Assembly: GCA_002792735.1 (NCBI GenBank)
Contig: PFOW01000012.1
Location: forward strand, 1 to 35,206
Reading direction: 5' to 3'
DNA from: a bacterium CG_4_10_14_0_2_um_filter_33_32
Lineage (GTDB): Bacteria; Patescibacteriota; CPR2_A; CG2-30-33-46
DNA: 35,206 nt
Under the pieces are notes generated by a model, which saw nothing but the letters and a program-made list of their open reading frames with translations, had not been told where the DNA came from and ran no database searches. Positions 9,093 to 30,623 of the stretch are shown in pieces (positions within the stretch are counted from its first letter, which is position 1; each line of letters starts with the position of its first letter). The translations under genes were made by a program, and so were the position numbers.

Positions 9093-9953
9093 TTATAAAG
9101 CATTTTTTTCCAGATCCTCGGATTGGGGTTTTTCTATGTATTCTAAGTATTTTTTTGTAGTATTAAGATTTTTATGACCTGCCATGTAAGCAATAGCGAC
9201 TAGGCTTGTACCTTTTTTAATATGATGGGCACAAAAGGTGTGCCTTAGATCGTGAACACAGGCATCGTATATACCAGCTTTTTTATAATAATTAGAAATA
9301 GACATTCTAACATTTCTTTGATCCAGGGACTTACCATTCCTAGTTATAAAAAATATTTCTGATTTAACTCTGGGTCTTACTTTAAGGTATTCTTCCATTG
9401 CTTTTTTAGCCGGGGAATTTAAAGGGATTGTACGGGATATTTTTAGCTTTTCATCTAATACATCTAATTTGGATTCCTTACGCCTTATATCTTTTGTTCT
9501 AATTCTTACAGCCTCGCCAACTTTAATTCCTGTTTGAAGCATTAATTCAATTATGGCAAAATAGCGTTTATCATTTTTGGCTGAATCTCTTAATGCTTTA
9601 TACTCTACAACGCTTAAAATCCTTGGCTCAGATTCTTTTTCTTTTAAATATTTCAACGCAGATGCTGGATTTTTTGATATAAATTCGTTTAGCTCAAGAA
9701 ATTTAAAAAAAGATTTAACCGCAACTGTTCTAGCATTGATACTTTTCGGGCTTTTATTTTTTTTAATATAGCGTGATAAAAATTTTTCCAGATCCTCTCT
9801 TCTAACGAGATGGACTTTATGTCTTTTTATTTCCAACAAAAAATTAATTAGTTCATCTAAATTTCTTTCATAACTACGAATAGTGTGAGAGCTTTTTCCT
9901 GTTTTCTCTAAGTGTTTTGTAAACTTATTTTTTGCTTCAGTTATATGAATCAT
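9093..9953 (-). CDS. tyrosine recombinase / integrase, XerC/D-like
   Basis: A 286 aa two-domain tyrosine recombinase. An N-terminal SAM-like core-binding domain (about 1-95, TIRSYERNLDELINFL) precedes the catalytic domain. Catalytic residues seen: HDLR (H234, R237), MAGH260 and the nucleophile Y269 in TTKKYLEY, with a lysine near 169-171 in the beta-hairpin. The first catalytic Arg, normally in TGLR, is replaced by Lys144 in TGIKVGEA, which is unusual and may lower or alter activity. It strands separately with its own promoter (9962-9990). It could be a chromosome dimer resolvase or the integrase of a resident element; there is no obvious dif or att site next to it. Confidence 0.85.
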   Translation of the reverse strand: MIHITEAKNKFTKHLEKTGKSSHTIRSYERNLDELINFLLEIKRHKVHLVRREDLEKFLSRYIKKNKSPKSINARTVAVKSFFKFLELNEFISKNPASALKYLKEKESEPRILSVVEYKALRDSAKNDKRYFAIIELMLQTGIKVGEAVRIRTKDIRRKESKLDVLDEKLKISRTIPLNSPAKKAMEEYLKVRPRVKSEIFFITRNGKSLDQRNVRMSISNYYKKAGIYDACVHDLRHTFCAHHIKKGTSLVAIAYMAGHKNLNTTKKYLEYIEKPQSEDLEKNAL

Positions 9954-19674: not shown

Positions 19675-20058
19675 GGGGCTGATCAGCTTCGACGTAAGTT
19701 CTTTAATAGTTTTAAATTGCAAATCGAGCCGAGTTAACTCGCTAAACTGATTCAAAAACTTCAAGTGCAAATTCACTTGTTAGCAAAGTAAAAGCTGCTT
19801 TTAGCGGCTTGAGCTTTGCGCCAGCTGTAGTTTAATTTCTATGGCCGTCTGTCATTCCAGCTCCTCGACTGAAGTGAACAGGCGTCATTTTTCGAGGTGC
19901 TTTTCGGTTGTATCTGTAAGCCGAAATTAAGATTCACAGGATAAGGTTAGTTGATTTTGTTTGTTTTTTACAGCTAACCCGAAAACAAAAAACAATCTAA
20001 ATTTGTAGAATGTTTAAAGCTATGCTTACGGACGCGGGTGCGATTCCCGCCAGCTCCA
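19675..20058 (+). ncRNA. ssrA: tmRNA
   Basis: The 5' end GGGGCTGATCAGCTTCGACG and 3' end GGACGCGGGTGCGATTCCCGC-CAGCTCC-A form the tRNA-like domain; GGGGCTG pairs with CAGCTCC over 7 bp with one G-U. The resume codon is probably GCA at 19767, 93 nt from the 5' end as in other tmRNAs. It opens a 22 codon tag beginning ANSLV and ending FAPAVV, with stop TAA at 19833-19835. The tail APAVV differs from the usual LAA/VAA degron. CCA is not encoded (the 3' end is followed by TTT). It rescues stalled ribosomes and tags nascent chains for proteolysis. The 3' end is repeated downstream. Confidence 0.93.
20046..20058 (+). repeat. tmRNA 3'-end core, left copy of 13 bp direct repeat
   Basis: CCCGCCAGCTCCA, the 3' T-arm/acceptor of the tmRNA, recurs exactly at 20523-20535. 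tmRNA 3' ends are classic integration sites, so the pair looks like attL/attR flanking a 0.5 kb segment with the GIY-YIG gene. Confidence 0.65.
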
Positions 20059-20100
20059 TTTCTCGACAAGCTCGAAATAGACCAAAAAAAGCTTGCCGGA

Positions 20101-20111
20101 AAATGGAGCTG
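20101..20111 (-). repeat. inverted copy of tmRNA 3' end
   Basis: AAATGGAGCTG is the exact reverse complement of the tmRNA end CAGCTCCATTT (20051-20061), 39 nt away. It may form a hairpin with the 3' end of the precursor, or be a remnant of an integration event. Confidence 0.5.
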
Positions 20112-20197
20112 TTTAGTAAAATATATTTGAGTAAATAAGAATCGAGAAATGACTTCGAGTTTCTATAGAAATCGAGAAGCCACTTCCTGCATAAATT

Positions 20198-20473
20198 ATG
20201 AACAAACCATGGTTTCTATATATTGCTAGAACGAGAACAGGAAGATATTACACGGGTATTAGTCAAAGTCCTAAAGAAAGAATAAAAGCTCATAATTCTG
20301 GGAATGGAGCTAAATTTGCTGTTAATCAAGGCCCTTTTGAATTAGTTTATGTTTCTTTACCTATCGAGAATAAGCACAAGGCTAGAGAATTGGAGATAAA
20401 AGTTAAGGATTGGTCTCAAGAGAAGAAGAATAGGCTAATTACCAAAGAATGGGAATTAGACATTGATTCTTAG
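20198..20473 (+). CDS. GIY-YIG nuclease-domain protein
   Basis: A 91 aa stand-alone GIY-YIG domain of the UPF0213/YhbQ type. The motif is split as FLYIARTRTGRYYTGISQSPKERIKAHNSG, with the GIY-like YI and YTG strands and the catalytic Arg in PKERIKAHN. The ending EWELD supplies the usual glutamate. Family members are single-domain DNA/RNA nucleases of unclear role. The gene sits alone between the tmRNA and the repeat of the tmRNA end at 20523, so it may be the cargo or mobility enzyme of a tiny insertion. The preceding 140 bp contain direct repeats of AATCGAGAA and no other gene. Confidence 0.8.
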   Translation: MNKPWFLYIARTRTGRYYTGISQSPKERIKAHNSGNGAKFAVNQGPFELVYVSLPIENKHKARELEIKVKDWSQEKKNRLITKEWELDIDS

Positions 20474-20522
20474 GTGAGTAGTAAGATTTTTACCCAGTAA
20501 TAAATTTATTTTAATGCTGTAG

Positions 20523-20535
20523 CCCGCCAGCTCCA
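20523..20535 (+). repeat. tmRNA 3'-end core, right copy
   Basis: Exact 13 bp copy of 20046-20058. It is followed by CCCTTAAGCC, and the overlapping GCTCCACCCTTAA (20530-20542) recurs exactly at 21861-21873. Confidence 0.65.
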
Positions 20536-20543
20536 CCCTTAAG

Positions 20544-20573
20544 CCTTTCTTCGAAGGGTCTTTATGGTATATT
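20544..20573 (+). promoter_or_regulatory. hairpin plus extended -10 (junction A)
   Basis: CCTTT-CTTCG-AAGGG hairpin (20544-20558), then TCTTTA and TGG-TATATT (20565-20573). It terminates the GIY-YIG unit weakly and starts the VOC gene message about 30 nt before its ATG. Confidence 0.5.
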
Positions 20574-20610
20574 AATTATAAATTTTCTTTATTAATAAAA
20601 CGGAGATAAT

Positions 20611-21048
20611 ATGAGTGTAAATCCTCAACAAAATAATTCTTTAATAGAGTTACATATTCCAGACTTTGAACTTGCCAAAAATTTTTATGGAAAATTAGGA
20701 TTTAACGTTATTTGGGAAAGAGAACCAGAAGACAAAAAGGGCTATCTTATTCTAAAATTAGAAGGTAATATTTTATGCTTTTATTGTGGTAATGAAATGG
20801 TTTATCAGCACTCTTATTTTGGTCGTTTTTCTAAAGATACTAAAAGAGGATATGGAGTTGAGATTGTTCTATTGGTAAACGATGTAGAAAAGTCATTCGA
20901 AGAAGCGAGTAAATTTGCAAAGGTTATACAAGAACTAAAAGTTAAGCCTTGGGGACTAAAAGATTATAGGATTGAAGACCCATTTGGATTTTACTTACGA
21001 ATAACAGAGCTTCACGATATATTAGATAAAAATAATACTATTCCTTAG
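20611..21048 (+). CDS. VOC superfamily (glyoxalase/bleomycin-resistance-like) protein
   Basis: A 145 aa protein with the paired beta-alpha-beta-beta-beta modules of the vicinal oxygen chelate fold: IELHIPDFELAKNFYGKLGFNVIWE and, in the second half, VEIVLLVNDVEKSFEEA, ending in the typical IEDPFGFYLRITE. Likely metal ligands are His/Glu at the start of each module (ELH, RITE). The family covers glyoxalases, dioxygenases and antibiotic-binding resistance proteins; the substrate cannot be told. GGAG lies 6 nt before the ATG. It is a monocistronic-looking unit of the kind commonly carried by gene cassettes. Confidence 0.75.
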   Translation: MSVNPQQNNSLIELHIPDFELAKNFYGKLGFNVIWEREPEDKKGYLILKLEGNILCFYCGNEMVYQHSYFGRFSKDTKRGYGVEIVLLVNDVEKSFEEASKFAKVIQELKVKPWGLKDYRIEDPFGFYLRITELHDILDKNNTIP

Positions 21049-21127
21049 TTAATTATTAAAGTTATATTTGGATTAAATAAAAAGAGATTAATTGATGGGC
21101 GTCGAAGAGGGAAATTGATTTTTAGTT

Positions 21128-21823
21128 ATGGCAGAAGAAGATAATATAAAAAAAATTATTAAAGAAGTACCAGAATTAATACTAAAAGATATTGATTCAT
21201 TTCTTTTGCTTAGAACTGATGGCAATCTATTACTACACCAATATAAATTAGGTGGTGGTAATATACTGGCTTTAATGGGTCAATTTTCAGTTCTAAATTT
21301 TCTGGCAAAAGTTTATAAAATATTATCTTCTGGACTAGATGGTATGAATAAAATATCTGAGGAAACTCTTGAAGTTTTGAAAGAGTGTCAGAAGAAAAAT
21401 CCAGAACTTAAGGTCATAAAACGACCCAACAAGGCAGAAATAATTGAAATTCATTCTTTTATAAAATTAGTAAAAGATTACCCTTTGGATTTGGGTATCC
21501 CAAAAGATGATGACGAAAGCATAAGAAAGGTTTGGAATGATATTAGAAACAAAGTTAGCCATATATCTAGTATTGCGAAAGATAATGTAGCAGTAACTTA
21601 TGAGTTTCAGGATTTGAATTTTTCAGATGCATTGGAAGCGATTAAAAGTGCTACCAAACCGGCTTTTCTTAGAGAAAAAGGAAGGACTTTTTGCTGGGTT
21701 GATATGTTGAATAGTAATTTAAGAAGTATCGTCACTTGGATTTGTAATAAAATTGATGCTAGGGAATTTTCAAAAGAAAATATCGAATCAACTATATCCT
21801 GGTTAAGGAATGAGGATTTGTAG
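21128..21823 (+). CDS. HEPN-like hypothetical protein
   Basis: A 231 aa mostly alpha-helical protein without close family that I recognise. Residues 136-145 read WNDIRNKVSH, matching the HEPN superfamily motif R-x4-H (R140, H145), the active site of many HEPN RNases of toxin-antitoxin, CRISPR and abortive-infection systems. It is flanked by helices as expected for HEPN. No MNT nucleotidyltransferase partner is beside it. It lies in the run of short cassette-like genes after the tmRNA, consistent with a defence or RNA-processing cargo. Confidence in coding is high, in HEPN moderate. Confidence 0.55.
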   Translation: MAEEDNIKKIIKEVPELILKDIDSFLLLRTDGNLLLHQYKLGGGNILALMGQFSVLNFLAKVYKILSSGLDGMNKISEETLEVLKECQKKNPELKVIKRPNKAEIIEIHSFIKLVKDYPLDLGIPKDDDESIRKVWNDIRNKVSHISSIAKDNVAVTYEFQDLNFSDALEAIKSATKPAFLREKGRTFCWVDMLNSNLRSIVTWICNKIDAREFSKENIESTISWLRNEDL

Positions 21824-21837
21824 CATTGTTTTTGGAA

Positions 21838-21904
21838 TAAGTCCAAACTTCTTCAGCTATGCTCCACCCTTAAACCCCTCTCTTGAGGGGTTTAAGGGTA
21901 TATT
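21838..21904 (+). promoter_or_regulatory. cassette junction B: conserved repeat, 14 bp hairpin, -10
   Basis: AATAAGTCCAAACTT (21836-21850) resembles junctions C and D. GCTCCACCCTTAA (21861-21873) is identical to 20530-20542. A perfect 14 bp stem follows (21867-21880/21885-21898, loop TCTT), immediately before TATATT (21899-21904). It ends the HEPN-like gene and probably starts the methyltransferase mRNA. Confidence 0.55.
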
Positions 21905-21936
21905 TTGATGATAGGAAAAATAGTAGAATTATAATT

Positions 21937-22596
21937 ATGAAACAATGGAATGAAGTATTTAAAAAGCACGGGAAAGTTTTTACTAATCCCCATGAGGATA
22001 TGAAAAAAATTGGAAGGATTTTCAAAGAACGTAAGGTAAAGAAAATTCTTGATTTAGGTTGTGGCACAGGAAGGCATACTGTTTATTTAGCTAAATGTGG
22101 TTTTGATATTTATGGAATGGATATTTCTGAAGAAGGAGTTAGGATTGCCAGAGAATGGCTAAAGAAAGAAGGGCTTAAAGCTAATTTTAAAATCGGTTCC
22201 ATATATAAGAAGCTGCCATATAAAGATAATTTTTTTGATGCCGTGATTTCCACAAATACTATTCATCATCAAGGAATCGAAAAAGTTCGGGGAACAATTC
22301 AAGAGGTTGAGAGGATTTTAAAACCAAAAGGATTAATTTTTATAACGGTTCGCAAAAGAAAGTTTAGAAAATTTTATCCAAATTTTACGATAATCGAAAA
22401 ATACGGAAAACAAAAATCAAGATATCAAGTGGTTGGTGCTAGAACTTATGTTCCGATAGAGGGAGGGGAAAAGGGATTGCTTCACTATCTTTTTAATAAA
22501 GAATTAATAAAAAAGGAGTTCAAAAATTTTAAACTTGATATCTGGGTTGATACTGATAGAAGACATTATTGTTTATTAGGCGAATATAAGAAATAA
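21937..22596 (+). CDS. class I SAM-dependent methyltransferase
   Basis: A 219 aa methyltransferase of the Methyltransf_11/25 type. SAM-binding motif I is ILDLGCGTGRHTVYLA near residue 45, motif II GMDISEEGVRIAREW, motif III/IV DNFFDAVISTNTIHHQ, and motif V VERILKPKGLIFITV. I chose ATG at 21937 (MKQWNEVFKKHG); the longer frame to 21883 runs through the hairpin of junction B. The substrate is unknown; the closest general resemblance is to small-molecule methyltransferases. Single-gene unit between junctions B and C. Confidence 0.85.
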   Translation: MKQWNEVFKKHGKVFTNPHEDMKKIGRIFKERKVKKILDLGCGTGRHTVYLAKCGFDIYGMDISEEGVRIAREWLKKEGLKANFKIGSIYKKLPYKDNFFDAVISTNTIHHQGIEKVRGTIQEVERILKPKGLIFITVRKRKFRKFYPNFTIIEKYGKQKSRYQVVGARTYVPIEGGEKGLLHYLFNKELIKKEFKNFKLDIWVDTDRRHYCLLGEYKK

Positions 22597-22616
22597 AGCT
22601 TGATTGGGTTGTTTAT

Positions 22617-22702
22617 AGATAAGCTCAAACTTGTTTTACTACACTTTGTTTTAAAGCGCTCCCTATTTTTAAACCCCTCTTTGGAGGGTTTTGTGGTATA
22701 AT
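22617..22702 (+). promoter_or_regulatory. cassette junction C: repeat, terminator hairpin, perfect extended -10
   Basis: GATAAGCTCAAACTTG parallels junction B. Then come GCGCTCC, the stem CCCTC-TTTG-GAGGG followed by TTTTGTGG, and TATAAT (22697-22702) preceded by TGG, an exact TGnTATAAT. Terminator and promoter are fused: the T-run of the hairpin is part of the spacer to the -10. Confidence 0.65.
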
Positions 22703-22729
22703 TATTAAAGTTATTAATGAGGATCTCTT

Positions 22730-23596
22730 ATGAAAAAAAGAGGAATATTATTTTTAGGTATTCTTTTATCGTTATTTGTCATCACCTCTATCAACGCATC
22801 TGGTAGCGCACCATCTGTTTATAATAGTGATGCCAAAGGTCTCTTAGAAATGCTTTGGGCTAAGCTGGATCAGGCGATTAATGCAAACTACAATGTCAGT
22901 ATGTTAATGAGATACCATGATCATGAAGGTTCTACAGGTGATGGTTCATTTATAACTAGAGGATTGCCTATTAACACCAACGGTATAAAAAACAATGCCA
23001 TTACTTCTGCAAAAATAGCAGATGGAACAATTGCCGATGCAGACATATCCGATATAGCTGCTATTTCTGATTCCAAGCTAGCAACTATTGCCACTGCTGG
23101 TAAAGTTTCTGATTCTGCTTTATCTTCAAATATTACTAAGTTTGGTTCCTCAATTGACACTGCAGATATTACAGATGGAGCAGTAACTGCAACAAAACTT
23201 TCAACTGCCGCAAGAACTCGAAGCGCTTCTCTCTATGTCGGAGATCTCGCAGCCGGAACGAGCGTAGATCTGCCTATAATGATTGCGCAGGGGAATATTA
23301 CACTTACTAAAGTAAGTTTTGCCAATTTGGGCGCAATTAACCAAAATGATACCGATTATCTCGCTCTTTCTATTGGAAGAGCTAGATCTGGGAGTGGGGG
23401 TAATCTTGTTTTTGCTTATACTAAGGCTACGGGAGGCGTTGCTTTGGGAGGTGTTAACTGGAACAATACTTATACAGGGACTTTCTCTGCGTCAGTGATT
23501 GCTGGGGATGTTGTTTATTTCCAATGTTTTAATTTTGGTGCCGGAAGATCTCTCAGTCAGTTTATTACAACTATTGAATACACTGTTTCTGAATAA
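22730..23596 (+). CDS. secreted fibre-like surface protein, paralogue 1
   Basis: A 288 aa exported protein. The signal peptide (residues 1-24, ending ITSINASG) is followed by a conserved N-terminal module SAPSVYNSDAKGLLEMLWAKLD, then NYNVSMLMRYHDHEG, shared almost word for word with the gene at 29817. Next is a repetitive stalk (NNAITSAKIADGTIADADIS, AVTATKLS) of the kind seen in phage tail fibres and trimeric adhesin stems, and a C-terminal beta-rich domain of about 130 residues, probably a jelly roll. GAGG lies 9 nt before the ATG. Transcription is from junction C. It is likely a trimeric surface appendage or adhesin; the target is unknown. Confidence 0.7.
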   Translation: MKKRGILFLGILLSLFVITSINASGSAPSVYNSDAKGLLEMLWAKLDQAINANYNVSMLMRYHDHEGSTGDGSFITRGLPINTNGIKNNAITSAKIADGTIADADISDIAAISDSKLATIATAGKVSDSALSSNITKFGSSIDTADITDGAVTATKLSTAARTRSASLYVGDLAAGTSVDLPIMIAQGNITLTKVSFANLGAINQNDTDYLALSIGRARSGSGGNLVFAYTKATGGVALGGVNWNNTYTGTFSASVIAGDVVYFQCFNFGAGRSLSQFITTIEYTVSE

Positions 23597-23654
23597 TATT
23601 ATCTAAGCTTTTTCTATCCTGATTTGCCGAGGCTCTATCAAAATTTCGATTTAG

Positions 23655-23680
23655 AAAAAGGCTCTTATCTGAGCCTTTTT
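23655..23680. terminator. bidirectional intrinsic terminator
   Basis: Perfect 10 bp stem AAAAAGGCTC/GAGCCTTTTT with loop TTATCT and T-runs on both strands. It serves the fibre-like gene on the plus strand and the small minus-strand gene ending at 23683. Confidence 0.85.
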
Positions 23681-23682
23681 TC

Positions 23683-23907
23683 TTATTTACCCAACAATTT
23701 TTTTGTTTCGGGGCTTTGTTTTGAGAACCAGTCCATTAATTTTTTTCGATGTTTGCCAATAGACCACCCTGATGATTTAAATTCATTCGGATGTTCTCTT
23801 TTGTATTGTTCACAAATATTTCTATCTATCCCATAGTTAGGGACATTAAACAGTATATTATAATCTTTAATGAATATTTCCATCATTTCTTCTTTTGTTT
23901 TTTGCAT
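23683..23907 (-). CDS. small hypothetical protein
   Basis: A 74 aa, highly charged, soluble protein (IFIKDYNILFNVPNYGIDRN, then SGWSIGKHRKKLMDWFSKQS). No family recognised. It is the only minus-strand gene of this segment. The coding call rests on its natural amino-acid composition, the shared terminator at 23655 and a TATGAT hexamer (23919-23914) exactly 6 nt before its ATG, which predicts a leaderless mRNA. The opposite-strand frame over it is poor in charged residues and looks like a shadow. Confidence 0.6.
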   Translation of the reverse strand: MQKTKEEMMEIFIKDYNILFNVPNYGIDRNICEQYKREHPNEFKSSGWSIGKHRKKLMDWFSKQSPETKKLLGK

Positions 23908-23959
23908 AACTACATCATAACATAAGATTTACATAATTTATATGGGGTATTTGGCTAAA

Positions 23960-24039
23960 ATAAGTCCAAAACTTTTTCTACCCCGGCCTGTCGTGGCCTC
24001 ACTCTTAGGTCTCTCTCAGGAGGGGTTTTGTGGTAATAT
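23960..24039 (+). promoter_or_regulatory. cassette junction D: repeat and extended -10
   Basis: AATAAGTCCAAAACTTTTTC again matches junction B. A CCTC/GAGG-closed weak hairpin and GGGGTTTTG follow, then TGG-TAATAT (24031-24039). GGTTTTGTGGTA is shared with junction C. Confidence 0.5.
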
Positions 24040-24065
24040 GGAAAAAGAGTAAAACATAGGAAAAA

Positions 24066-24869
24066 TTGTTTAGTATTTTTAAGCAAGCGATAAAAGAAAA
24101 AAGATGGACACTTCTAACTTACTGTTTGGCAGGACTTTTCTTTGTTTGGATATATGTTTCTCTTTTTCCAATCGTTCAAGGATCATCGGTTAACGTTGCC
24201 CAACTTGTAAAAAATTTGCCAGAAGGCGTCGTTAAAGCTTTCAGCCTGGATCCAAAATCTTTTACAAGGTTTGAGGGTTTTATTTCCGGTAAACACTTTA
24301 GCCTCCTTTGGCCAATTATGCTTATTGGATTAGCTATTTCTTCTGGCAGCGCCTTTATATCCGAAGAAATAGAGAAAAAGACAATCAGTATTTTATTATC
24401 AGAGCCTATTTCAAGGACTAAAATATTTTTAGGAAAATTCCTCGCAGGTGTTTTTAATATCTTTATTTTTACCACAGTTTCTATCTTGTTAATTGTCCCT
24501 TTGGCTAAAATTTATGGCGTTGCTTATACAGGTGAAGGTTTTTTAAAAATAACTATCATTGGTTTTGTTTTTGGGTTGTCTGTTTTTAGTTTATCTATGT
24601 TGTTTTCGGCTATGTTTTCCGAAAAAGGAAAAGTAATCTTTTTAACCTCAGGTACCCTAATGGCAATGTATTTTGCTAATCTCGTCGCTCTTTTAAAGGA
24701 TAACTTAAGCGGGTTAAAATATTTTTCATTTTTCTATTATTTTAATTATTCAGAAATCTTGGTTCATAACAAAATAGATAATTGGGCTTGGTTAATTTTT
24801 TTGGGAACATTTCTTATTTCCAGCTCTTTAGCAATCGTATTGTTTAATAAAAGAGATATCGCAGCATGA
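24066..24869 (+). CDS. ABC-2 type transporter permease
   Basis: A 267 aa integral membrane protein with about six helices. It begins MFSIFKQAIKEKRWTLLTYC and contains the ABC-2 signature EEIEKKTISILLSEPISRTKIFLGKFLAG between the second and third helices. It starts at TTG 24066 behind AGGAAAAA. Family members pair with an ATP-binding subunit; none is encoded beside it, so the ATPase must lie elsewhere or the cassette is incomplete. The stop TGA (24867-24869) overlaps a following ATG as ATGA. The large loop with NLPEGVVKAFSLDPKSFTRFEGFISG is typical of this subfamily. Confidence 0.8.
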   Translation: MFSIFKQAIKEKRWTLLTYCLAGLFFVWIYVSLFPIVQGSSVNVAQLVKNLPEGVVKAFSLDPKSFTRFEGFISGKHFSLLWPIMLIGLAISSGSAFISEEIEKKTISILLSEPISRTKIFLGKFLAGVFNIFIFTTVSILLIVPLAKIYGVAYTGEGFLKITIIGFVFGLSVFSLSMLFSAMFSEKGKVIFLTSGTLMAMYFANLVALLKDNLSGLKYFSFFYYFNYSEILVHNKIDNWAWLIFLGTFLISSSLAIVLFNKRDIAA

Positions 24870-25039
24870 TTATTTTTATTAGCGGTTCCATAAATTCCGG
24901 AGAATCCACTGTGGTAAAACTTTTAGCCAAGAGATTAGATAATGCTATTGTTTCTGAATTAGTCGATCTAAATTTTAGTTTGACCGATTATATAATAAGT
25001 GCTACTATATCAATAGTCATTGATATAGGGTTGTTATGA
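24866..25039 (+). pseudogene. truncated P-loop kinase remnant
   Basis: A 57 codon frame. The first 35 residues (ISGSINSGESTVVKLLAKRL, then DNAIVSELVDLN) look like the start of a P-loop kinase or phosphotransferase. The Walker A lysine is changed to Glu (SGES for SGKS) and the rest of the enzyme is missing. The second half coincides with the promoter and operator of the ArsR operon, so that operon probably replaced the rest of the gene. ATGA overlaps at both ends might still allow translation. Confidence 0.55.
24980..25026 (+). promoter_or_regulatory. ArsR operon promoter and palindromic operator
   Basis: TTGACC (24980-24985), 17 nt, TACTAT (25003-25008). Overlapping the -10 and start site is a perfect 8-4-8 inverted repeat ATATCAAT-AGTC-ATTGATAT (25007-25026), matching the ATCAA-N6-TTGAT form of ArsR/SmtB operators. 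Repressor bound here would block its own operon. AGGG lies 6 nt before ATG 25036. Confidence 0.75.
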
Positions 25040-25344
25040 AAAAAACAGTTTGTTGTAACCAAGAGTTAAAAAACTTAATAAGTGCAATAGATTTAAGCGA
25101 TTTTTTTAAGCTTTTATCTGATCCTAATCGGTTAAAAGTAATTAGTCTTTTAAGTAAGCAAGATTTGTGTGTTTGTAAAATCTATAAATCATTAAGACTT
25201 TCGCAAAACCTTGTTTCTCATCATCTATCCAAATTAAAGAGTGCTGGATTACTTAAGGAAAGGCGGGATGGTAATTTTATAATATATAGTCTTGATAAAG
25301 TTGTTTTTAGAAAGTATAGAAGCATATTTATTAATTTAATATGA
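25036..25344 (+). CDS. ArsR/SmtB-family metalloregulator
   Basis: A 102 aa winged-helix repressor. The metal-binding motif DLCVCKI (C45, C47) corresponds to ELCVCD of the ArsR alpha-3 site. The recognition helix is LSQNLVSHHLSKLKSAGLL, and the wing RRDGNFIIYSL. Two extra N-terminal cysteines (C6, C7) could complete a thiolate site for As(III), Sb(III) or another soft metal. The C-terminus is short. It lies directly behind the palindromic operator and ahead of a thioredoxin-like and a permease gene, so it probably autoregulates a soft-metal detoxification operon. Confidence 0.88.
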   Translation: MKKTVCCNQELKNLISAIDLSDFFKLLSDPNRLKVISLLSKQDLCVCKIYKSLRLSQNLVSHHLSKLKSAGLLKERRDGNFIIYSLDKVVFRKYRSIFINLI

Positions 25345-25351
25345 GATAAGA

Positions 25352-25594
25352 ATGGAGATTAAAATTCTAGGCACTGGTTGCCTAAATTGTAATAAACTGG
25401 AAGCTAATACAAAACAAGCAATTAAGAATCTTCAGGTAAAGGCAAACATCATAAAAGTTACCGATTTAACGGAAATTCTCTCTTATGGAATTATGAGTAC
25501 GCCCGCTCTGGTTATAGATGGAGAAATAAAAGCCGTGGGGATGATTCCTGACGTTGAAGATATAGAGGAGATAATTAGGAGTTTAAATAAATGA
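25352..25594 (+). CDS. small thioredoxin-like redox protein
   Basis: An 80 aa thioredoxin-fold protein of the 'redox-active disulfide protein 2' type. The CLNC motif (C10, C13) follows the first strand, and cis-Pro is in MSTPALVIDGE. Such proteins regularly sit between arsR and an ArsP/UPF0718 permease. It may reduce the metal(loid) or the transporter's cysteines. Its stop TGA overlaps the permease ATG (ATGA), so the two are coupled. Confidence 0.85.
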   Translation: MEIKILGTGCLNCNKLEANTKQAIKNLQVKANIIKVTDLTEILSYGIMSTPALVIDGEIKAVGMIPDVEDIEEIIRSLNK

Positions 25595-26541
25595 TTAAGA
25601 TTTTTGCTGATTGGCTAACTTATACTATTTTTAATATAACTCCCAAAACTCTTGTTGCTGAAACAGTAAACTTTTTTATTTACGATACAATTAAAATCTT
25701 TTTGTTGCTCATCACGGTTATTTTTATTGTTTCAGTGATCCGTTCTTATTTTCCACCAGAAAAGATCAGAGACATCCTTTCAAAAAGGAAAAAATATGTC
25801 GGTCATATTTTGGCGGCTTTATTGGGAATTATTACCCCTTTTTGTACATGCAGCGCCATACCAATGTTTCTTGGCTTTGTAGAAGTAGGAGTTCCACTCG
25901 GAATTACGTTTTCCTTTTTAGTTGCTTCACCAATGATCAATGAAGTTGCGCTTGTTTTGTTATTAGGAATGTTTGGTTTTAAAATAGCGGCTATCTATGT
26001 AGTAAGCGGACTTATAATAGCTATTATTTCGGGATTAATTATAGGTAATTTAAAAGTTGAAAATCTAGTTGAGGATTTTGTATATAAAAATAAGGGCAAA
26101 CAATTAGATCTACCCAAGTTAGATTTTCGACAAAGAATTTTTTATGCAAAAAACTATACAATGAATATTGTTAAGCAAGTTTGGTTATTTATATTGATTG
26201 GTATTGGTATAGGTGCTTTTATACACGGTTATGTTCCTACTGATTTTCTCGCTAAATATGCAGGGAGTGGAAATTGGTATGCCGTGCCACTGGCCGTGTT
26301 GGTTGGCATACCTCTTTATTCAAATGCGGCAGGAATTATTTCTTTGGTTAGTGTTTTAGTCGAGAAGGGGGTTAGTATCGGAACTGTTTTAGCTTTTATG
26401 ATGGCAGTTACGGGTTTATCCTTACCAGAATTTATGATTTTAAAAAGAGTTATGAAAACCAAGCTTATTCTTATTTTTGCTGGGGTTGTCGGAATTGGGA
26501 TCATAATTACAGGTTATCTTTTCAATCTAATTATTATTTAG
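25591..26541 (+). CDS. ArsP/UPF0718-family permease
   Basis: A 316 aa membrane protein with about eight helices and the two-repeat layout of the DUF318/UPF0718 permeases. The first repeat contains the conserved cysteine motif TPFCTCSAIPMFLGF (C85, C87) and VGVPLGITFSFLVASPMINEVAL; the second has PLYSNAAGIISLVSVLVEKG and MAVTGLSLPE. Characterised members (ArsP) export trivalent organoarsenicals through such cysteines. Its position after ArsR and the thioredoxin-like gene supports soft-metal(loid) efflux. The exact substrate is inference. Confidence 0.85.
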   Translation: MIKIFADWLTYTIFNITPKTLVAETVNFFIYDTIKIFLLLITVIFIVSVIRSYFPPEKIRDILSKRKKYVGHILAALLGIITPFCTCSAIPMFLGFVEVGVPLGITFSFLVASPMINEVALVLLLGMFGFKIAAIYVVSGLIIAIISGLIIGNLKVENLVEDFVYKNKGKQLDLPKLDFRQRIFYAKNYTMNIVKQVWLFILIGIGIGAFIHGYVPTDFLAKYAGSGNWYAVPLAVLVGIPLYSNAAGIISLVSVLVEKGVSIGTVLAFMMAVTGLSLPEFMILKRVMKTKLILIFAGVVGIGIIITGYLFNLIII

Positions 26542-29705: not shown

Positions 29706-29816
29706 AATAAATGAAACTTGTGCTTACATCAGAAGGTAAATGGCAGAAGTTTAATTAAGAATTATTTCTTTTAAGCAATTTTTTCTATATAATATTGATA
29801 ATTAATGAGGCCTCTT

Positions 29817-30560
29817 ATGAAGAAAAAAAATTATCTGATGTTAGGCATTTTTGTCTCTATCTTTATCGTAACCTCTATTAAAGCAGCTGGCAGCGCACCA
29901 TCTGTTTATAATAGTGATGCTAAAGGTCTTCTAGAAATGCTCTGGGCTAAACTAGATGAAGCTATAGTATCTAATTACAATGTAGGGATGTTAGTTAGAT
30001 ACCATGATCATGAAGGTACTAACCCCGGAGATTTTGTAAGCAGAGGATTGCCTTTAGGCACAAACGGTATTAAAAACAATGCTATTTCTGGGGGGAAAAT
30101 AGAAAATAATGCTATAACTACTGATAAAATTTTAGATAATACGGTTACTGCTGCAAAGCTTGCTGTAATGGCTAAAACCCATACCGTTTCTATCCCTATG
30201 GGATCTGTAGATGCAGGGACAGGAAAGGCTCAACCAATTTTTATTGCTCCAACTAGCGGAACGGTAACGGCAATATCTTTTGTAAATACATCCGATATTC
30301 CAGTAGATGGAACTAATCATACTCATCTTGTTATTCATAAAAACTTAACAGCCGATACAACAGGACAAATTGCTGCTCTTTCCAATGATTCATCTACAAT
30401 TACCCATAATACTGTTTATCGTCCTGAAATTGGTATTATTAATTCTGACTGGTTAGACTTTGTATCGGGAGATTTTTATACATTTTATAAGATTGATAAT
30501 GGTTTTGGTTCTGCAATTAATAATATGTTAGTGACCCTTGATTATGTTACTTCTGAATAA
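29817..30560 (+). CDS. secreted fibre-like surface protein, paralogue 2
   Basis: 247 aa from ATG 29817, chosen over 29805 because GAGG then lies 6 nt upstream exactly as in paralogue 1 (the two leaders share AATGAGG..CTCTTATG). The signal peptide (1-24) and N-terminal module (SAPSVYNSDAKGLLEMLWAKLD, then NYNVGMLVRYHDHEG) are nearly identical to the gene at 22730. The stalk is shorter (NAISGGKIENNAITTDKILD, then AVTAAKL), and the C-terminal beta-rich domain is clearly different in sequence. The conserved base and variable tip resemble tail-fibre or adhesin diversification. TATAAT lies near 29790. Confidence 0.7.
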   Translation: MKKKNYLMLGIFVSIFIVTSIKAAGSAPSVYNSDAKGLLEMLWAKLDEAIVSNYNVGMLVRYHDHEGTNPGDFVSRGLPLGTNGIKNNAISGGKIENNAITTDKILDNTVTAAKLAVMAKTHTVSIPMGSVDAGTGKAQPIFIAPTSGTVTAISFVNTSDIPVDGTNHTHLVIHKNLTADTTGQIAALSNDSSTITHNTVYRPEIGIINSDWLDFVSGDFYTFYKIDNGFGSAINNMLVTLDYVTSE

Positions 30561-30582
30561 ATATTCAAACTGTTAAGCCTTT

Positions 30583-30617
30583 AAAGCCTCTCTTCAAGAG
30601 AGGCTTTATGATAATAT
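30583..30617 (+). promoter_or_regulatory. junction E: terminator hairpin fused to extended -10
   Basis: Stem AAAGCCTCTC (30583-30592)/GAGAGGCTTT (30598-30607), then TGA-TAATAT (30609-30617), then 6 nt to ATG 30624. The end of the fibre-like gene and the leaderless start of the next gene are packed in 60 nt. Confidence 0.65.
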
Positions 30618-30623
30618 TAGAAT

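Follow-up and report, generated by a model that had tools for sequence, protein, structure and literature searches.

The subject of this analysis is the region behind the transfer-messenger RNA (tmRNA) gene, ssrA, in a 35,206-nt stretch of DNA (the window) from a bacterium of the phylum Patescibacteria; the stretch is contig 12 of an 81-contig genome of 0.9 Mb (907 kb). Immediately downstream of ssrA lies a small unit composed of a double-hairpin module and a gene for a GIY-YIG nuclease, and beyond it unrelated genes are lined up between partly similar junctions. We propose, with a probability of roughly 0.6, that this small unit is mobile and lands at the tmRNA 3' end; it would spread in a homing-like manner and cause the accretion of the genes behind it. 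Judged from the sequences, the best reading is a family of homing-like GIY-YIG elements that target tmRNA and tRNA genes and leave the RNA gene working; their mobility and cleavage activity are what we infer from the arrangement described below.

The tmRNA is uninterrupted and of full length according to ARAGORN and Rfam. Of its 13-bp 3' tail, CCCGCCAGCTCCA, the complete genome (907 kb) has just two copies, at 20046 and at 20523, the second copy lying 465 nt beyond the tmRNA 3' end, while the reversed pattern, used as a control, has 0 occurrences in the genome and the chance expectation is about 2e-6 per 4 kb (zero-order model, genome composition). The exact repetition of the tmRNA end, noticed already in the first-pass annotation of this DNA, is therefore real, with no third copy genome-wide, and the element is flanked by direct repeats of the ssrA 3' end, as ssrA islands are. 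Directly past the second copy stands a terminator-like hairpin (20543-20559), so that this order fits the end of the original tmRNA unit, with the intervening stretch inserted; the tail and hairpin of this junction (J1 in Table 1) are probably the former tmRNA terminator.

The first unit (20059-20535) thus comprises a module anchored in the CCA of the tmRNA, the GIY-YIG gene, the tail copy and the terminator-like hairpin. The left arm of the module starts with the CA of the CCA, its inner palindrome is TTTCTCGACAAGCTCGAAAT, and the outer 10-bp stem appears in the minimum free energy (MFE) fold. The 91-aa protein is related to UPF0213 proteins of solved structure and, by its Pfam match, comes from a superfamily of homing nucleases. 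Like a homing element, the unit occupies a fixed conserved site, the tmRNA 3' end, also in distant genomes, and leaves the host gene functional, the tmRNA being of full length. We regard the first unit as a good, well supported case of apparent insertion at ssrA. The first-pass annotation had listed the GIY-YIG gene as cargo among others; it should rather be seen as the enzyme linked to the site.

The association is not limited to the window. Our survey of the site covered 52 tmRNA loci spread across the phylum, the window genome included (in all statistics genomes are counted as independent of one another). In 9 of the 52 genomes, again with the window's own, a GIY-YIG gene starts no farther than ~330 nt behind the tmRNA, always on the tmRNA strand, and in four cases one lies 1.6-3.4 kb downstream. 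When the positions of 150 GIY-YIG matches in the phylum (from 105 genomes) were crossed with tmRNA positions, 11 were found 26-3392 nt downstream of a tmRNA, all on the same strand, with 0.27 expected (P ~1e-14); the closest one upstream of a tmRNA is 7.3 kb off.

Transfer RNA genes are involved as well. The GIY-YIG protein of the window, itself linked to tmRNA, served to select the 30 best-matching loci (31 genes), and 13 of these 31 GIY-YIG genes have a same-strand tRNA or tmRNA 3' end no more than ~300 nt upstream; in the control, restricted to the open reading frames (ORFs) of the window genome and to a shorter distance limit of 150 nt, 12 of 802 ORFs have an RNA neighbour. The RNA genes directly before GIY-YIG at these loci include those of tRNA-Ser, Arg, Lys, Tyr, Glu and Met, and Rfam scans of 18 GIY-YIG loci other than the window's gave only tRNA and tmRNA matches. 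In genome G028 (L306), ~1.6-2.1 kb downstream of the tmRNA, a GIY-YIG gene splits a tRNA-Ser right past the anticodon, the 5' half being duplicated and an intact tRNA restored behind the GIY-YIG gene. Of 20 RNA ends linked to a GIY-YIG gene, 12 have an inverted repeat of the form CA-X...X'-TG, compared with ~0.9 at control positions, and its arms differ between sites yet are complementary. Taken as sequence comparisons, these data point to GIY-YIG units at tmRNA and tRNA 3' ends as a little-noticed kind of mobile gene; the literature searched, with most subscription papers outside the search, contains no report of GIY-YIG genes at such ends. A CCA-anchored palindrome was also seen right behind the tmRNA of G050 (L278) where the GIY-YIG gene is absent, possibly a solo module.

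Duplicated tails and empty sites were found in other genomes. Behind the tmRNA, 6 of the 52 genomes have a tail copy of 13-22 nt, versus 0 of 156 in three control scans, and G049 mirrors the window layout, with tmRNA, module, GIY-YIG gene, the tail-like copy AATTCCCACCATCTCCACT and a terminator. For the exact 13-mer of the window, a phylum scan gave a nearby duplicate in no genome but the window's, since lineages differ in their tail sequence. In G048 (L303) the 0-835 nt downstream of the tmRNA hold a single kinase-like gene, followed by a 19-nt tail copy and a terminator, and both nuclease and recombinase are absent from this segment; it is the sort of one-gene unit that had been proposed for the window. 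Inserts of ~157 nt devoid of ORFs lie between the tmRNA and a 16-22 nt tail copy in G053 (L273), G045 (L299) and G056 (L271), those of G053 and G045 holding an inverted T-arm-like stretch.

Occupied and empty alleles coexist in close relatives. Of four genomes in the G010 genus, two (G010 and G149, the latter with an apparently frameshifted GIY-YIG gene) have the module and the GIY-YIG gene directly behind the tmRNA, while G031 and G081 have unrelated sequence there, and alignments with or between the unoccupied sites end at the tmRNA 3' end. The similarity likewise breaks at this point in several other pairs from one genus or one family. The gap between tmRNA and GIY-YIG gene is 19 nt in G032; its relative G012 has a gene of 74% identity at a distance of 3.4 kb, which looks as though more DNA had come in at the same site.

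Homing-like cut-and-repair that keeps the RNA gene whole appears to be the most economical mechanism. The nuclease would cut an unoccupied tmRNA (or tRNA) gene close to its 3' end, and repair from an occupied copy would place the unit right behind the CCA, so that the RNA gene remains complete, while a copy of the RNA tail and the old terminator would stay at its far end. If such rounds recur and the repair tracts drag along neighbouring genes of the donor, they would pile up unrelated genes between copies of the tail and terminator, and an array such as that at 20536-24060 would result. An accretion origin is accordingly predicted, by the same scheme, for the VOC, HEPN, methyltransferase, fibre and permease segments; that they came by further rounds at ssrA is plausible and fits the junctions J1-J3.

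These junctions are related to each other and specific to the locus. GCTCCACCCTTAA, found at 20530, is repeated exactly at 21861, as the first-pass annotation had stated, and there it stands before the perfect 15-bp hairpin of J2, which is very strong (z -6.8 versus shuffles). The local alignment of J1 with J2 (score 42) is above that of J1 with all 320 other intergenic regions, and the J2-J3 alignment likewise beats all 320. The search of the genome for a junction consensus, suggested earlier, was made with a DNA profile of five cores (J1 20530, J2 21861, J3 22660, J4 23996 and J5 30574): in the 760 kb covered by this and the motif scans it has no further match at E<=10, all members being within ~10.6 kb downstream of the tmRNA. 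The sequence, hairpin and promoter-like box that junctions at 21838, 22617 and 23960 had been said to share are recovered unevenly. AATAAGTCCAAACTT is exact at J2 only, with 13/15 in register at J4 (one extra A) and 12/15 at J3, and since 57 sites in the 760 kb match at least 12/15, this motif by itself is weak; the hairpins of J1 and J3 are terminator-like, yet not significant versus shuffles. Promoter-like sites in the region show no excess over shuffles. The idea that each cassette brings a terminator and a promoter of its own is supported in part, by the related set J1-J3, with J4 weak and the promoters at chance level. Two candidate markers were discarded: AGTCCAAACTT on its own, as a one-mismatch genome scan gave no more hits than the reversed-pattern control and is thus uninformative, and the succession of hairpin and -10 box as a general style of the genome, since it is barely above controls (57/341 vs 43/335). 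In viral contigs the 17-mer of tail plus junction had four matches, none with a tRNA or tmRNA by ARAGORN or Rfam.

As to the genes between the junctions (Table 1), Pfam backs the GIY-YIG, glyoxalase/VOC, methyltransferase and ABC-2 permease assignments. The HEPN-like protein, for which Pfam gives no match, weakly resembles Csm6 in NCBIfam (E 0.001) and has an RNKVSH motif; its gene is a rare accessory one, present in 2 of 191 other genomes, and neither this protein nor the GIY-YIG protein has relatives in viral contigs. The description of the region as single genes on one strand holds in part, as the VOC and HEPN-like genes sit in one shared interval and a 74-aa ORF (23683-23907) lies on the opposite strand behind the fibre gene. 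The fibre-like secreted protein and its paralogue (29805-30560) have a conserved N-terminal half (80% identity over 181 nt of DNA) and diverged C-terminal halves. Farther downstream, at 25036-26541, genes for an ArsR-type regulator, a small thioredoxin-like protein and a membrane permease stand in a row that resembles a metal/arsenic efflux operon.

Table 1. Features of the window that bear on the region behind ssrA
Feature	Position	Strand	Basis or remark
Tyrosine recombinase	9093-9953	-	10 kb upstream of tmRNA; one of two in genome
tmRNA gene (ssrA), anchor	19675-20058	+	ARAGORN; Rfam RF00023, E 8e-56
tmRNA 3' tail CCCGCCAGCTCCA, first copy	20046-20058	+	
Double-hairpin module	20057-20151	+	Outer inverted repeat (stem in MFE fold) and inner palindrome
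Outer inverted repeat of module, CATTTCTCGA / TCGAGAAATG	20057-20066 / 20142-20151		Spacing 75 nt
GIY-YIG nuclease (UPF0213-like), 91 aa, intact	20198-20473	+	Pfam PF01541, E 1.4e-14; PDB 1zg2, E 4e-11
tmRNA 3' tail CCCGCCAGCTCCA, second copy; distal end of GIY-YIG unit	20523-20535	+	Exact match scan
Junction J1: tail, terminator-like hairpin 20543-20559, TGGTATATT	20530-20583	+	
VOC/glyoxalase-like protein, 145 aa	20611-21048	+	Pfam
HEPN-like protein, 231 aa	21128-21823	+	Weak NCBIfam similarity, motif
Junction J2: AATAAGTCCAAACTT, GCTCCACCCTTAA, perfect 15-bp hairpin 21866-21899, GGGTATATT	21836-21917	+	
Class I S-adenosylmethionine methyltransferase, 219 aa	21937-22596	+	Pfam
Junction J3: GATAAGCTCAAACTT, hairpin, TGGTATAAT	22618-22712	+	
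Secreted fibre-like protein, 288 aa, paralogue at 29805	22730-23596	+	
Junction J4 (weak): AATAAGTCCAAAACTT, hairpin at the level of shuffles, TGGTAATAT	23959-24049	+	
ABC-2 type permease, 267 aa	24066-24869	+	Pfam
J5: another terminator-like hairpin and TAATAT, same class, ahead of zinc-finger-like gene	30574-30623	+	Junction profile

Several observations weigh against the homing and accretion proposed here. The segments past J1 carry no nuclease, the J4 alignment is weaker than those of J1-J2 and J2-J3, and the J4 hairpin is no better than shuffled sequence. Most tmRNA-linked GIY-YIG units are devoid of a clear distal tail copy, so the duplication is not universal, or it decays, and GIY-YIG genes at tRNA-Ser, Arg and Lys often have no double-hairpin module. 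Covariation in 8 of the 10 pairs of the module arms comes from a set preselected for complementarity and illustrates the pairing rather than tests it. The presence/absence evidence is from other genera, the window genome being the sole member of its class in the comparison set; a search of genome contigs with the response regulator encoded upstream of the tmRNA as the query found no near relative. Finally, GIY-YIG in insertions of rRNA genes of the candidate phyla radiation (CPR) was judged to be outside spread by homing (Tsurumaki et al., PMC11270868). Repeated insertion at ssrA, as proposed in the first-pass annotation, is supported for the first unit and, by comparison between genomes, for the site, given the GIY-YIG genes near tmRNA (9/52), the tail copies (6/52) and the breaks of similarity, and is less certain for the later cassettes.

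It is quite conceivable, if somewhat short of an even chance, that mobility ends with the first unit and that the VOC, HEPN, methyltransferase, fibre and permease genes are ordinary neighbours whose spacers are alike in terminator-promoter style by convergence or local duplication; such a view is compatible with our best explanation for the first unit. The weak alignment and hairpin of J4, the chance level of promoter-like sites and the frequency of AATAAGTCCAAACTT at 12/15 speak in its favour. Yet the junction profile has no other member in the 760 kb, J1-J2 and J2-J3 outscore all other intergenic regions, the HEPN-like gene is found in so few genomes, and the succession of hairpin and -10 box, which the genome as a whole has scarcely more often than controls, is not a house style.

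The array might also be a remnant of integrase-driven islands at ssrA like those of Dehalococcoides, small tandem islands having been inserted by a recombinase acting on the ssrA tail, with the integrase genes lost or acting in trans. This has a direct precedent in tandem islands bounded by 20-bp ssrA repeats (PMC3146451), the tail repeats of the window would be the direct repeats, and a tyrosine recombinase (9093-9953) is encoded in the window. We nevertheless consider it rather unlikely. No recombinase was found among the proteins of 20059-24869, none adjoins the tail repeat, and no link was found between the recombinase at 9093-9953 and the tail repeats; the genome has 0 matches to PF00239 (the resolvase family) and two to PF00589, both elsewhere, a number of tyrosine recombinases compatible with housekeeping Xer proteins. 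The integrase for which the first-pass annotation advised to look is, accordingly, missing from the array. Moreover, the units are only 0.5-1.4 kb, and the family enriched at the site phylum-wide is GIY-YIG. Still less probable, in our opinion, is that the GIY-YIG genes are immobile residents co-expressed with tRNA or tmRNA, e.g., for RNA or DNA maintenance. In favour of this, the genes keep to the strand of the RNA when near it, their ORFs are mostly intact, and related UPF0213 proteins are known in other bacteria; however, their occurrence is patchy inside one genus, with an apparent frameshift in G149, their neighbours are many different RNA genes, a tRNA-Ser is interrupted with partial duplication in G028, and tail copies lie beyond GIY-YIG in G000 and G049.

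Returning to the homing-like element, we tentatively suggest, although the odds are on the lower side, that it represents an undescribed family of mobile DNA in Patescibacteria: autonomous elements of ~0.5 kb, composed of a CCA-anchored double hairpin and a GIY-YIG nuclease, that would recognise conserved tmRNA and tRNA 3' ends and by cut-and-repair drive stepwise gene accretion behind ssrA, forming an integrase-free, cassette-like hotspot. The gain of accessory genes in the streamlined Patescibacteria is poorly understood; a nuclease-linked hotspot at tmRNA and tRNA 3' ends, if it exists, would be a concrete and searchable route by which genes are gained with no integrase involved. It would also give the small UPF0213-like GIY-YIG proteins a role in these genomes, and it predicts cutting activity on a defined target.

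Among the known systems, integrons have arrays in which attC sites with GTTRRRY and RYYYAAC cores lie between the genes, with IntI and attI at the head. The window resembles them in the unrelated genes arranged in series and in the hairpin-bearing repeats between these genes. The likeness to integron cassettes put forward at first does not go further: attC cores were absent from the plus strand of J1-J4, and the array head has neither IntI with attI nor any other adjacent recombinase.

The Dehalococcoides ssrA islands, accessory segments in tandem downstream of ssrA, share with the window the direct repeats of the ssrA 3' end and the intact RNA gene; they are larger, and many carry a CcrB-like serine recombinase module, DsiB (PMC3146451), whereas the window units are of 0.5-1.4 kb, no resolvase was found, and a GIY-YIG gene and a double hairpin are linked to the site. 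Comparable, too, are homing-endonuclease insertions in fungal mitochondria, known from Phlebia (atp6 and cox2) and Allomyces (atp6), in which an endonuclease gene likewise lies behind a gene kept complete by 3'-end duplication (PMC4019555); their targets are protein-coding, while those in the window and other Patescibacteria are bacterial structural RNA genes. The CPR rRNA insertions belong to the same broad bacterial group and also have a GIY-YIG ORF in non-intron insertions of structural RNA genes (PMC11270868), but they interrupt the rRNA, whereas units of the window type stand at tmRNA and tRNA 3' ends and have an inverted repeat anchored in the CCA and sometimes a tail copy. Group I introns, which occupy the tmRNA T-loop and in a few cases have LAGLIDADG homing endonuclease genes, are similarly selfish elements in the tail region of tmRNA (PMC11915505); they are self-splicing and interrupt the gene, while the unit of the window stands behind an uninterrupted tmRNA.

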